64,000 bases of DNA from Fennellomyces sp. T-0311 (taxonomy: Eukaryota; Mucoromycota; Mucoromycetes; Mucorales; Lichtheimiaceae): the NCBI GenBank assembly GCA_025266875.1, contig JALLLT010000016.1, forward strand, positions 310,001-374,000, read 5' to 3'. The notes under the pieces are model-generated. The model saw only the letters and a list, made by a program, of their open reading frames with translations. It was not told the origin of the DNA and ran no database searches. Below are positions 8,415 through 13,040 of the stretch, piece by piece. Positions within the stretch are counted from its first letter, which is position 1. Every line of letters starts with the position of its first letter. Both the position numbers and the translations under genes were made by a program.

Positions 8415-10579
8415 TCACAGCCCCCGCAGTTTGTTCAGACTCTGCGCCGCCTGTGGATACTCCTTGGCAAATCTATGATGCTCCTGGTCAGCCCTGCGTC
8501 CAGCTCTGTCCTACCATGAAAAACTTGCCTAATCTGCGCCTTTGTTGCTTCGACGTACGAGATTGCTTGCTCAATCTCAGCCGCTGTTCGTGCCAGTTGG
8601 ATTGCCATTTCGTAGTAGTGCAAAGCTTCTGTCGGTCTTCCTTGTTCTAGCAGAATCTGTGCTAACGAAGCGACGGCGGCGTCGCAAGCAGGATCCACTG
8701 ATCATTGTTTGTATATTAACATATCACAGTCGTAGTGCGTAATAGATCATCATGAGCTTCTTTTAGTACCTTCCAAGGCTCTCTTGCATAACCGGATCGC
8801 TTCGTCGGCATCTCCTATCCCCTGGTACGTCAGCATCGCTTTGTTGATATATGGCATCGGGCCATTTGGATCCAGCACCGTTGCCTTGGTGAACATTTCG
8901 AGTGCCTCTGGAAGCTTTTGCTGATCCGCCAAAAGCTCACCAAAGTAGTTGTGTATTTCGGCGGACTTCTCGAATTTTGCGAGCGCATTCTCAAAGGTCG
9001 ACATGGAGAGATCATTAGAACCGAGCTTGTATTGGACGACTCCAAGCTGTATATGTGCATACACCAAGGAGTCATCAAGTCTGATACTCTCGGTGTAATC
9101 GTTGGCAGCTCCTTCGTAGTCCCCATTTATATATTTGACTGACAGGAACCATCAGCTTGAGAAACTCTATACGTTTGTTACCATACCTTGACCGCTATTA
9201 CATAGTCAGCACGTAGAAATGATTTTTACAATGCTTCTATACTTACCGATGATAGTATATGTCAGCGTCGCTTGGATTGATTGCAATCGCTTGCTCAAAC
9301 TGATTCAAAGTAGCAGCCAACTCGCCTAATTCCATATATATACTTGACCGCTTGATATAGCTTTGAACATACTTGGGATCCAACTCGATAGATTTATCGA
9401 AGCATTCAAGCGCCTCTTTGGCGTTGCCTTTCAAGAATGAGAATGTACCTTTAATGTTGAGAGCGTGCGCTTGATATGGCGAAGAGCAACCAAGCTCAAC
9501 GGCTTTATCACAAGCCTTGGATGCCTCATCGTAGTTTTTGGACTTCATTGCATCGCATGCTTTGACGAAATACTCATCGCCTGAGCCACCATTCGCTATT
9601 GGCTCTGGTCGTGAGCGGTCTACAACAAATGCATGAGTTACGAAACAACAAGTGTGCATATACAACAGACCGGGACGATATGAGTCAAAGTAAGCGCTGA
9701 CAAAGGTGGACGACGGTAACCGTGGCGCTTTAGTCTGTTGCCATGGACACCAGTTTGCTTGTTAAAAAAAAGTGCTGACACTTGATGCAATATTACCTTC
9801 ATTAGATCCAAAGCCTTCTGCTCTGAAACCTTCTTCATGAGACGCTCCATCGACTTTGCAGCTACTTCGTTTTTAAACCCTTCGAGTATACAGACAGATG
9901 TATAGTCTAATACTCCCGAGTCAGTGTCATTGTCGTTGAAGGAGCCGAGGGAACCTCACCATAAAGAGACTCCTCCAGTTCGCCGCGCAACTCCAAGGCA
10001 TGAGCACGTCGGTTAAGTGCCTTAATGTAGACCGGATTCAAACGTAGCGCCTGGTTGCAGTCGTCAAACACCTGATCGTTGTCGCCAAGATTTGCATAAC
10101 AAGCTGCCCGGTTCGAATAGTAGACAGGATCTGCTTTGTACTCCAAAGCCTTTGTATAGAAACGCGCAGCCTCCTTCCAATTCTTTTTGCCAAAGAGGCT
10201 GTTTCCTTTTGTTTTCAGTGTTTGCGCAGCAGCTGCCCTTTGCTAAACCACACTTTTAGAGCTATGCGGAATATTTTTACTGCGTTTAATATATTACTTT
10301 GGTCGTGAGCTTTGCAATAGCTTCCGGCGACAATGTCTCGTAGTCGATCGTTGCAGCATTACCTAGAGGGTTGTTGTCAAGTTGCATTCACGCGCGATTC
10401 CTGAAGGCTTTACCAGACTGTTGAGTTGTATCACCAGGCTTCTCAGAAGTTTCGGGTGGTGCTGAAGGCGACGAAAGGTAGTAAACGCCTATTCCTGCAA
10501 AGACTACACTAGCTGCTATAGCACTATAAAGCCTCCAGTCATTGGTTTCAATGAACCGCTTTAGACGATCGTTCGCCAT
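8415..10579 (-). CDS. TOM70: Mitochondrial import receptor TOM70
   Basis: Outer-membrane receptor for chaperone-bound carrier preproteins. The N-terminus (MANDRLKRFIETNDWRLYSA) leads into one membrane helix (AIAASVVFAGIGVYYL), then a Pro/Ser/Thr linker and many TPR repeats. Visible TPRs include VYYSNRAACYANLGDNDQVF, ALRLNPVYIKALNRRAHALE, ALNIKGTFSFLKGNAKEALE, SYIKRSSIYMELGELAATLN and SLAQILLEQGRPTEALHYYE. About 590 residues, normal for Tom70. The final exon is uncertain. After EATKAQIR the sequence AG|GCAAGT suggests a GC-AG intron, but its acceptor gives a frame that ends at 8435. The other frame (FAKEYPQAAQSLNKLRGL, stop at 8415) looks more like a Tom70 tail. The gene is divergent from VPS55 with a 145-base shared promoter. 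Confidence 0.9.
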
Positions 10580-10724: not shown

Positions 10725-11595
10725 ATGGCCGGTTTACGAAGTAGGTTACTCAACGCATAAATTCTACTTTCTTGACACTCTTTCAAAGAGATGTTTCTTG
10801 CAAGAAGAGATGAACTGATTTGATAATGTGCTGTTTGTAGCGTAGGTGTCATTTAATTGTCGTTCTCCCGTGATTTGGAAACTTCGGAAGTAAAAAAAAA
10901 AGAAGAGGAACTCACTTTCATTTCGAAAAAGGATCATTGCATTGGCTTTTGTTTTGGCCATCGGCTTTCTGCTTGTCATATTATCGTGTGCGTTATATTA
11001 GTAAGTTCGGCTTTGCTGTTGATAACGGGAATCGCTGGTCACTAACCTGTTTTGGGGTGTCTGCCAGCAATTGGTGGCCACTGTTAGTAGGTATGTGTTG
11101 TCATTAGCTGGATCTGTAAGTGGGAATATCTGACTTGCCCTTGGAATAGTGGCAACGTATGTGCTCGCACCATTACCAAACGCACTGTGTAGTCGGTGCG
11201 CGGGTCAAGATGATATCATGTCCGAATATAACAGTGGTGTAGTCGATGCAGGGCATTTTGTTACGGGAATGTTCATCGTTACTGGATTCTGTAAGTTTTG
11301 ATACAAAAGGACTCGGAAGGCAGTGGCTAATGCGGGGATGAACAGGTCTTCCATTTGTGCTTGCACATGCTGGAGTGGTACGTCAAAGAGCCAATAATCT
11401 GATAGGAAAAGCAACCTTATCATATCCGTAATTAGATCACGATTCCCGCTATGGTCATGAGTATTTGTGGAGGCATTCTGGTGTATGGCACAAGTAAGTT
11501 GGATCATTGATGTTTGTTTGTTTTTAACTAAAGGTTGGTTGCTCCCAGTTATCGCATACACCCATTTCTTCGCCGATCAAGGCGATGATTACTGA
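10725..11595 (+). CDS. VPS55: Vps55/LEPROT-family endosomal membrane protein
   Basis: Small tetraspan protein acting with Vps68 in late endosome to vacuole traffic. Exon 1 (10725-10744) is MAGLRS plus two bases, then a GTTACT donor. After splicing to 10933 the protein reads RIIALAFVLAIGFLLVILSC (helix 1). Further exons add NWWPLL, YVLAPLPNALCSRCAGQDD, SGVVDAGHFVTGMFIVTGF, GLPFVLAHAGVI and a last helix near MVMSICGGILVYGT, ending FFADQGDDY. The LAPLPN and FxTG blocks and the four hydrophobic segments are the Vps55 signature, and the ~130-residue length fits. Introns are short, and the first is the longest (~188 bases). It shares its promoter with TOM70 and converges on the bZIP gene. Confidence 0.88.
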
Positions 11596-11885
11596 TATCC
11601 CTGTATATTCTGTATGTATGTTACTCTTCCTACGCTGTACCCTTCACTACCACCTATGAGATATGTACACAATACAACACGTAACCCTCAGATAAAGGGT
11701 GATATCAGCATGACATGGATCGAGATATTTTAACGTGAGAGCCACATTAGGAAGTTTTATTTGCGTCTATATACAGAATACAAGAGAAAAGAGAGAGAGA
11801 ACAGATGATATTATATAAGAGTAAAAAAAAAAAGAGAGAGAGAGAAAGGAACAGAGGGAGAAACATGTCAATAGCATGATTTCAG

Positions 11886-12638
11886 CTACTGCCGGGGACC
11901 AATTCCAGCCAAAGACTGGTGAGCCTGGGCCAATTGGGCTTCTAAGCTCTTGATGCGTTGCTCGTAAGACGCTTCTTTAGCGAGCAAAGACGTTTTTTCC
12001 GATTCCAGTACAGCAGCGCGCAAGAGCAAGGTCGTATTTGTCTTCTCCAATTCAGCCACACGTTTCTCGAGACCCTCCATCTTCATAACCTTTCGTAACC
12101 GAGAACGACGAGCAGCATCAGTGTTCTTTTGGCGCTTGATGGCGGCTTCATCCGTAGGAGAAACTTCACTTTCGGACTTGCGTTTCCGAGTAGAGAAGGC
12201 CGGGGTAACATCGATGACGGGACTTTGCTGCGGCGATGGCTGTGCGACAGGAGGCGGAGACTGGACAGGTGACTGCGTCACGGTTGCCAAGGCGGCCAAA
12301 GCAGCATGCAAGTCAGCCGATGCAGGCGCAGCAGGAGGAGGGATGGGCACATCAACCAATGGGGTGTTCAAAATCGCCGATACATCCAAGTCGGCGAAGC
12401 CAGCTTGCTTTTCAAAGCCACAGTGCTCGGTTGTAGGTGAAGTCAAGAACATATCTTGAGGAGTGGCGATTTCGGGAGTCGAGTGGACACTTTGTTGTCC
12501 GGAGAACCATTCAGGAGCGAGCCACGGTTGCTCAGAGCTGGCGCTGCCTTCCGAGGCGAGCGACTGGAAAAATTGCTGGAAAAATTCGTCGTCCATTTTT
12601 TGGGATACTGGCTTGGTTTGGGGAATAACGGTAGTCAT
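11886..12638 (-). CDS. GCN4/CPC1-type bZIP transcription factor
   Basis: Predicted activator of amino-acid biosynthesis genes under starvation (general amino acid control). A single exon encodes 250 residues from the ATG at 12638. The open frame extends ten codons further upstream but has no ATG there. The N-terminal ~150 residues are rich in acidic, Pro, Ser and Gln residues, including an aromatic-acidic patch (MDDEFFQQFFQSLA, PWLAPEWFSG) that suits an activation domain. Near residue 175 the basic region RQKNTDAARRSRLRK closely matches the Gcn4 NTEAARRSRARK signature, followed by a leucine zipper (GLEKRVAELEKTNTTLLLRA...). The leader carries three upstream ORFs and the promoter a TGAGTCA element, both hallmarks of GCN4-like control. 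CPC1 or GCN4 would be suitable names once orthology is tested. Confidence 0.88.
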   Translation of the reverse strand: MTTVIPQTKPVSQKMDDEFFQQFFQSLASEGSASSEQPWLAPEWFSGQQSVHSTPEIATPQDMFLTSPTTEHCGFEKQAGFADLDVSAILNTPLVDVPIPPPAAPASADLHAALAALATVTQSPVQSPPPVAQPSPQQSPVIDVTPAFSTRKRKSESEVSPTDEAAIKRQKNTDAARRSRLRKVMKMEGLEKRVAELEKTNTTLLLRAAVLESEKTSLLAKEASYEQRIKSLEAQLAQAHQSLAGIGPRQ

Positions 12639-12661: not shown

Positions 12662-12754
12662 TCAACAAGGTTGTGGTGTTGGTTTTCGAGACTTAGAAGT
12701 CTTTTTGGTGAGTCGTTTGGATTGACATAATGGTAAACTGTAAAAGTAGGCCAT
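12662..12754 (-). promoter_or_regulatory. uORF2 in the bZIP leader (30 codons)
   Basis: ATG at 12754 in the context CCCATCATGG opens a 30-codon frame (starts MAYFYSLPLCQSKRL) that ends with TGA at 12664-12662, only 23 bases before the main bZIP ATG. It could block scanning to the main start, as inhibitory uORFs do in GCN4 and CPC1 mRNAs. The function is inferred. Confidence 0.6.
12693..12728 (-). promoter_or_regulatory. uORF3 in the bZIP leader (11 codons)
   Basis: A second out-of-frame ATG at 12728 lies inside uORF2 and encodes MSIQTTHQKDF before TAA at 12695-12693. Whether it is used is unknown. Confidence 0.4.
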
Positions 12755-12843
12755 GATGGGCAACTACGGATGTTGTTGGATTGGGGAAAAAATGCTGGAT
12801 AACTGGTTGACACTGAAAAAATCGTACAATTGTACGGAGGCGC

Positions 12844-12864
12844 TTAAGCGGTGAACGAAGCCAT
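12844..12864 (-). promoter_or_regulatory. uORF1 in the bZIP leader (6 codons)
   Basis: ATG at 12864 sits in a near-ideal context (CCCACCATGG) and encodes MASFTA before TAA. It is the first ATG downstream of the TATA-like element. A short, well-placed first uORF followed by further uORFs is the arrangement used for reinitiation control in GCN4 and CPC1. Confidence 0.6.
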
Positions 12865-12929
12865 GGTGGGATAACTGGGAATATCACAACAAGGGGTGGT
12901 TACAGGCAAGAAAAATAAAGGTAAAGAAG

Positions 12930-12940
12930 TATATATAATT
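12930..12940 (-). promoter_or_regulatory. TATA-like element of the bZIP gene
   Basis: The minus strand reads AATTATATATA, about 70 bases upstream of uORF1. If it works as a TATA box, transcription would start near 12900 and the leader would be about 260 bases with all three uORFs inside. Confidence 0.45.
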
Positions 12941-13033
12941 AAAAGTGTTTTCCAACCAGGAGGAAGTTAAAGAGCGAAGAACCAAAAAATTTTCGAGCGA
13001 GGGGTGAAAATAAAAGCGACGGAGACACAAATG

Positions 13034-13040
13034 TGAGTCA
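13034..13040. promoter_or_regulatory. TGAGTCA site, Gcn4-type binding element
   Basis: An exact match to the TGA(C/G)TCA palindrome bound by Gcn4-type bZIP dimers lies ~100 bases upstream of the TATA-like element of the bZIP gene. This suggests autoregulation. The match is certain; binding is inferred. Confidence 0.5.

Follow-up and report, generated by a model that had tools for sequence, protein, structure and literature searches.

A candidate two-uORF starvation switch in the leader of a GCN4-type bZIP gene from a Mucorales fungus

The leader of a GCN4-type bZIP gene from a fungus of the order Mucorales, family Lichtheimiaceae, contains a short 5′ upstream open reading frame (uORF) that is followed, ahead of the predicted main ORF, by a further uORF in good start context. 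We consider it reasonably probable that this leader works as a two-uORF starvation switch of the reinitiation type known from GCN4 and cpc-1. Judged from sequence, a leader of the GCN4/cpc-1 type is probably real and functional here, and the best support for reading it as translational control is the leader of a sister gene, located on contig C117 of the same genome. This kind of control is already known; the points of interest are its phylogenetic reach and a stretch of uORF2 peptide that the two leaders have in common. The window, the whole 64,000-nt stretch of DNA that was analysed, is part of contig C68 (880,874 bp) of a 45.6-Mb genome.

The bZIP gene and the anatomy of its leader

The main ORF encodes a predicted 250-residue protein that matches Pfam family PF07716 (2.9e-11). 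Four PDB sequences were matched at E ≤0.001, all of them GCN4 (E 1e-6 to 3.8e-6), and the GCN4 chains align to residues 162/163-205 of the bZIP protein (best 1e-6). By its Gcn4-type basic region the predicted protein is a member of the GCN4/CPC1 bZIP family, in agreement with the preliminary description of this DNA, which had placed a bZIP gene with such a basic region at 11886-12638. Its nearest named homologs come from Phascolomyces, Circinella and Zychaea. In an alignment of 20 sequences, two rows of which lack the N-terminus, M1 is nearly invariant and an MTTV or MSTV start recurs in six homologs. The near-invariance of M1 argues for the ATG at 12638 as the main start and for the DNA upstream of it as leader or promoter. 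The features of this region are as follows, with window positions first and negative numbers counted from the main ATG.

11886..12638, minus strand: main ORF, Gcn4-type bZIP protein of 250 aa, basic region and zipper at residues ~163-221
12864-12844 (-226 to -206), minus strand: uORF1, MASFTA then stop, ATGGCTTCGTTCACCGCTTAA, context CCCACC/ATGG, presumed reinitiation-permissive
12754-12662 (-116 to -24), minus strand: uORF2, 30 codons, MAYFYSLPLCQSKRLTKKTSKSRKPTPQPC then stop, strong context CCCATC/ATGG, presumed inhibitory
12728-12693 (-90 to -55), minus strand: nested uORF, MSIQTTHQKDF then stop, 11 codons, in the main frame and within uORF2
12823..12836, minus strand: 14-nt palindrome CGTACAATTGTACG directly after uORF1, a possible 5-bp RNA stem with a 4-nt loop
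12929..12937, minus strand: TATA-like stretch TATATATAC, by motif only; TATATATA runs from about 12937 (about -299)
13040-13034 (-402), minus strand: TGACTCA of GCRE/AP-1 type, candidate self-binding site, by motif only

All three uORFs are present with the lengths that had been described for them, as are the near-ideal start context of uORF1, the 23-base gap between uORF2 and the main ATG, the TATA-like element and the exact TGAGTCA reported upstream (the minus strand reads TGACTCA). Besides the three upstream ATGs (uATGs) no ATG lies within 330 nt of the main ATG, and the next one upstream, at -403, overlaps the TGACTCA. On sequence, the region thus has a short 5′ uORF and then a further good-context uORF ahead of the predicted main ORF.

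The number of uATGs in the 298-nt leader (3) is the dinucleotide-shuffle mean (3.1) and therefore carries no meaning. Their contexts are less easily obtained: the shuffle mean for strong-context uATGs ([AG]NNATGG) is 0.07, and two were reached in 2 of 2000 shuffles. The C117 leader likewise has two, a number reached in 5 of 2000 shuffles. The short-then-long uORF layout arose in 3.8% of shuffles, under a rule that was set after the data had been inspected. Among the 12 window ORFs of at least 250 codons, bZIP included, only the bZIP gene has this layout and the mean is 4.8 uATGs per 298 nt; we place no weight on this background, because many of the ORF starts in it may be exon starts.

Removal of the uORFs by splicing, named beforehand as an outcome that would speak against uORF control, was not borne out under the rule used to call introns: no candidate with both a fitting donor and a branch site takes out either uORF. 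The donor survey drew on 28 intron-like stretches that were themselves chosen by a pattern. Branch sites accompany just one candidate intron, whose donor is non-strict and whose acceptor, at -236, precedes uORF1. A weak donor, GTACGA at -189, can be paired with acceptors at -125, -99 and -1, all of them without branch sites; with the acceptors at -99 and -1 it would delete the uORF2 start. Another candidate, GTAACC...TTTTTTCAG, was spotted by eye and rejected for want of a branch site and of a G at its fifth base; visual inspection of the alignment shows neither of its splice sites kept in C117.

The 10 nt that follow uORF1, GCGCCTCCGT, are GC-rich, and the 10 nt after uORF2 are AAAAGCATTT. 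Permissive uORFs of yeast have AU-rich sequence behind them, and the GC-rich stretch behind uORF1 therefore counts against the yeast analogy.

The leaders of the paralogs

Conservation of the uORFs was judged on paralogs of one genome. There are five paralogous matches in the genome, and the leaders compared were those of C117, C1, C139 and C100, with C130 and the remaining bZIP loci left out. The bZIP alignment, used to scan viral_contigs and genome_contigs, turned up no relative.

The C117 protein matches a database protein of Fennellomyces sp. T-0311 residue for residue and is 63% identical to the bZIP protein over query residues 109-245. Phylogenetic analysis of 47 bZIP regions over 92 columns, for which the program issued a long-branch warning, placed C117 beside one Circinella minor protein (support 95/94). 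A second Circinella minor protein falls with the bZIP gene, together with C. umbellata, Phascolomyces and Zychaea (86/86, not starred). Since each duplicate has a Circinella minor protein in a group of its own, the duplication is most likely older than the Fennellomyces-Circinella split.

Aligned over their last 300 nt, the two leaders score 144, compared with a shuffled mean of 69 (sd 8, maximum 97; 0 of 500 shuffles). The C117 uORF1, MAAAHFFSA then stop, begins at -255 from its main ATG in the context TCCACC/ATGG, and its start and stop align with those of the bZIP uORF1 in 14 of 15 pairwise settings and in all three MAFFT runs. The two uORF1 lengths differ by 9 nt, which preserves the frame. 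A uORF1 module, CCACCATGGCT-N-CCGCTTAARCGCYTC, occurs at exactly two sites in the 45.6-Mb genome, these being the two leaders from which the pattern was itself derived; the reversed control gave 0. Relative to the main ATG, the uORF1 frame of the bZIP leader differs from those of C117 and C1.

The C117 uORF2 starts at -122/-119, ends 17 nt before its main ATG and lies in the same frame relative to that ATG as the uORF2 of the bZIP leader, an agreement expected by chance in one case out of three. Both uORF2 peptides contain QxxxLxKKTxKxR. Their alignment scores 31 against a shuffled mean of 16.9, a score reached by 21 of 5000 shuffles, and the true frame pairing exceeds the 8 other pairings, which score at most 21; the alignment spans only 13 residues, and the C-terminal ends are unlike. 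The uORF2 start codons are aligned in no pairwise setting and in no MAFFT run. That of the bZIP leader maps to -132 to -146 in C117, a stretch without an ATG. The C117 AUG at -119 instead faces the nested AUG of the bZIP leader, which is in another frame, in 14 of 15 pairwise settings; the remaining one left the nested AUG and the uORF start points unaligned. In the three MAFFT runs the nested AUG maps to -106 of C117, where there is no ATG, and the nested uORF has no counterpart reading frame in the C117 leader. The unaligned starts imply that the uORF2 start has shifted, or has arisen anew in one of the duplicates. Taken at the sequence level, uORF1 is conserved from start to stop and uORF2 as a frame and a peptide stretch, without its start codon. 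No uORF2-like motif was found in the first 120 residues of the proteins among the 120 matches listed of 345 (the query's own included), so that uORF2 is not fused into those gene models.

The lack of alignment between the uORF2 starts lowers our confidence in the switch and raises it in an alternative that we hold to be unlikely, namely that the conserved blocks are promoter DNA elements and that the frames are incidental, or lie outside an mRNA whose transcription starts downstream. The palindrome after uORF1 and its flanking blocks could be protein-binding sites, and the chance-level count of uATGs also fits this alternative. However, DNA elements do not readily account for a uORF1 whose start and stop are both kept across a length difference that stays in frame, for a uORF2 similarity that is highest in the true frame pairing, or for the pair of strong-context uATGs that recurs in both leaders and was so rarely reached by shuffling.

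Arms of the form CGTAC...GTACG are found behind uORF1 in both duplicates (the C117 gene is locus L010), with loops of 4 and 12 nt. The C117 stretch carries CGTAC-N12-GTACG, and CGTACAATTGTACG is its bZIP counterpart; the stems fold at -6.0 and -5.7 kcal/mol. The arms may be a small RNA stem or a DNA site. The matching position in C117 shows no TATA-like stretch.

The C1 paralog (L011) belongs to a deep separate Mucorales clade (100/98). Its leader has a short-then-long pair of its own, a 6-codon uORF1 (MVAVIF) and then a 45-codon uORF2, the latter with a start in poor context and with a frame, counted from the main ATG, that matches that of the bZIP uORF2. Similarity of the C1 leader is insignificant (27 of 500 shuffles for the bZIP leader, 280 of 500 for C117). 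Its uORF2 peptide is unlike the others, the score being matched by 950 of 2000 shuffles against the bZIP uORF2 and by 438 of 2000 against that of C117, and a database search with the 45-aa peptide found no homolog. There is no TGASTCA within 800 bp upstream of C1. The short-then-long layout is absent from the C139 and C100 leaders.

The spacer between uORF1 and uORF2 measures 89 nt in the bZIP leader, 103 in C117 and 106 in C1, and the distance from the end of uORF2 to the main ATG is 23, 17 and 80 nt, respectively. Such spacing would suit delayed reinitiation, and in the bZIP and C117 leaders uORF2 probably ends too close to the main ATG for a ribosome that has translated it to initiate a second time. 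Stops in the main frame occur at -57, -30 and -141, in each case downstream of the uORF2 start. With these stops inside the uORF2 span, non-AUG extended isoforms cannot start upstream of uORF2, and the main frame is not open upstream of the inhibitory uORF as it is in the CPC1 subtype of Pezizomycotina and Basidiomycota.

A proposed switch, its alternatives and its possible targets

Under the reading that we favor, scanning ribosomes would start at uORF1, with its 6 codons and near-ideal context, and terminate there, after which part of the 40S subunits may remain on the mRNA and resume scanning. In fed cells the 89-nt spacer would give these subunits room to reacquire initiator tRNA, and they would initiate at uORF2. 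The end of uORF2 would be too near the main ATG for further reinitiation, as the 23-nt spacing and the portions cited here of work on GCN4, cpc-1 and ATF4 suggest (PMC5972666, PMC5487733), so that little bZIP protein would be made. During starvation, GCN2 would phosphorylate eIF2alpha and some subunits would pass the uORF2 AUG without initiator tRNA; these could regain it before they reach the main ATG, 116 nt further on. The bZIP protein produced in this way may act on the TGASTCA sites that precede amino-acid genes, and perhaps on the promoter of its own gene, as the occurrence of the motif suggests. The reinitiation control proposed in the preliminary description is favored by the two-uORF leader of C117, by the GCN2 locus described below and by the Gcn4-type DNA-binding region; two of the three uORFs have counterpart frames in C117, and the nested uORF has none.

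The alternative that ranks next, likewise improbable in our view, is that uORF2 alone exerts control by leaky scanning or bypass and that uORF1 is a modest constitutive damper. The strong context of uORF2 and its partly common peptide are compatible with this, and a single-uORF mode is reported for uORF3 of Candida albicans in the portion cited of PMC5972666. However, conservation in the leader is clearest for uORF1 and weaker for the uORF2 start, and from a start as near to ideal as that of uORF1 most ribosomes should translate uORF1 first. Least likely of all is a peptide-dependent brake, in which the basic KKTxKxR stretch of uORF2 would slow or stall ribosomes in place of simple spacing: the old duplicates are alike at the peptide level despite their different uORF2 starts, but the likeness covers just 13 residues, does not extend to the C-terminal end and is not shared by the C1 uORF2.

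We also entertain, as a long shot, a broader idea in which the duplicated Mucorales GCN4 genes keep an old leader, with the uORF2 peptide QxxxLxKKTxKxR as a brake, a stem behind uORF1 that tunes reinitiation, and two-uORF control that predates the Mucoromycota-Dikarya split. If true, this would be peptide-dependent GCN4 control, a form that the portions cited of PMC5487733 and PMC5972666 describe neither for yeast GCN4 nor for cpc-1.

The genome encodes a predicted eIF2alpha kinase GCN2. At a GCN2-type locus on contig C146, Pkinase is matched in two neighbouring ORFs and HGTP_anticodon2 is matched downstream; the ORF between them gave no Pfam match and reads HisRS-like. The other two PF12745 matches look like histidyl-tRNA synthetases.

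Seven amino-acid enzyme loci were picked by Pfam family, and site distances were counted by hand. TGASTCA occurs upstream of three of the seven; it lies at -100 in a HIS3-type locus and at -102 in a chorismate synthase locus. No exact TGASTCA was found upstream of argininosuccinate synthase, HisG, tryptophan synthase alpha or a second ketol-acid reductoisomerase (L025), and the one site of HisG is inside the gene. Within 500 bp, the amino-acid loci have 4 TGASTCA sites vs. 0.49 expected (p 0.0017), and the number of genes with a site is 3 vs. 0.48 expected (p 0.009), with p between 0.0007 and 0.02 across four ways of counting. Genome-wide, the extended form RRTGASTCAYY occurs 335 times, compared with 187 for a reversed control. 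The third of the amino-acid loci with upstream sites, the ketol-acid reductoisomerase L026 on C68 near 591900, has three exact TGASTCA at about -660, -450 and -240.

The window contains nine TGASTCA sites, that upstream of the bZIP gene included. The C117 TGACTCA lies in TGGAATGACTCAC at -479 and resembles, by eye, TGGATGACTCAC at -402 in the bZIP leader; 1 of 5 pairwise settings brings the two into register. The bZIP site at 13034 is not of the extended RRTGASTCAYY form, and the C117 site is. Autoregulation as an established fact was rejected, as one exact TGASTCA within 500 bp upstream has a p of about 0.07 and is not significant alone; for both duplicates to carry one, p is 0.005. What stands of the earlier suggestion of autoregulation is that the motif, which constitutes the evidence, is present, and that autoregulation through TGACTCA is plausible because the motif recurs upstream of C117.

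Known systems and neighbouring genes

The leader of Saccharomyces cerevisiae GCN4 is longer than the bZIP leader. The two genes are alike in the type of basic region, in uORF control (proposed for the bZIP gene) and in having no N-terminal extension (PMC5487733, in part), and differ in that GCN4 has four short uORFs (PMC5972666, in part) and the bZIP leader has uORFs of 6 and 30 codons plus a nested one of 11. The preliminary description had spoken of a different uORF layout, which overstates the case: a short uORF1 and then a longer uORF2 are also found in Neurospora cpc-1, Basidiomycota cpc-1 and ATF4, according to the portions cited of PMC5487733 and PMC5972666.

Neurospora crassa cpc-1 has a very short permissive uORF1 and a longer inhibitory uORF2, both in strong contexts, ahead of a Gcn4-type bZIP (PMC5487733, PMC5972666, both in part); the bZIP leader has the same arrangement, with these roles presumed for its two uORFs. 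The cpc-1 leader exceeds 700 nt, and its main frame is open past uORF2 and allows non-AUG extended isoforms (PMC5487733, in part). In the bZIP leader, by contrast, the main-frame stop at -57 lies inside uORF2. Basidiomycota cpc-1 leaders also have a uORF1, of 4-7 codons, and then a much longer good-context uORF; in some cases the long uORF runs into the main ORF, whereas the bZIP uORF2 ends before it, and in 32 mRNAs the main frame continues without a stop from uORF1 to the main AUG, whereas the bZIP leader has one (PMC5487733, as far as the cited portion goes). Mammalian ATF4 has a short uORF1 and a longer inhibitory uORF2 (PMC5972666, in part), and resembles the bZIP leader, whose uORF2 is presumed to be inhibitory. 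The ATF4 uORF2 overlaps the main ORF, whereas the bZIP uORF2 stops ahead of it.

Within Mucorales, the gcn4 gene of Mucor circinelloides (JGI ID 85517), a putative GCN4 homolog, is induced by phagocytosis and needed for normal germination afterwards, and its deletion mutant is attenuated in mice (PMC6428757, in part). The term "uORF" is absent from the main text of that paper (PMC6428757). Ivanov et al. (2017) report that cpc-1 leader sequence was scant for other fungal phyla, Basidiomycota excepted (PMC5487733, in part), and among the matches listed from the open-licence PMC literature none dealt with uORFs in a Mucorales GCN4. If a two-uORF leader is conserved in Mucorales, this control would extend beyond Dikarya, its age would become testable, and it would be seen that both copies can retain it after gene duplication; a uORF-based amino-acid-starvation switch may have an earlier origin and a broader distribution than demonstrated so far. 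Moulds related to the source fungus cause mucormycosis.

Downstream of the bZIP gene, on the same (minus) strand, an ORF has a TPR match at 9907-10146. The minus-strand ORF at 10388-10579 has no Pfam match and reads like a membrane anchor; the ORFs at 9907-10579 may together encode a Tom70-type receptor. On the plus strand, at about 10880-11600, an apparently multi-exon gene for a small membrane protein converges on the bZIP gene, and its exons may encode a protein of VPS55 type.
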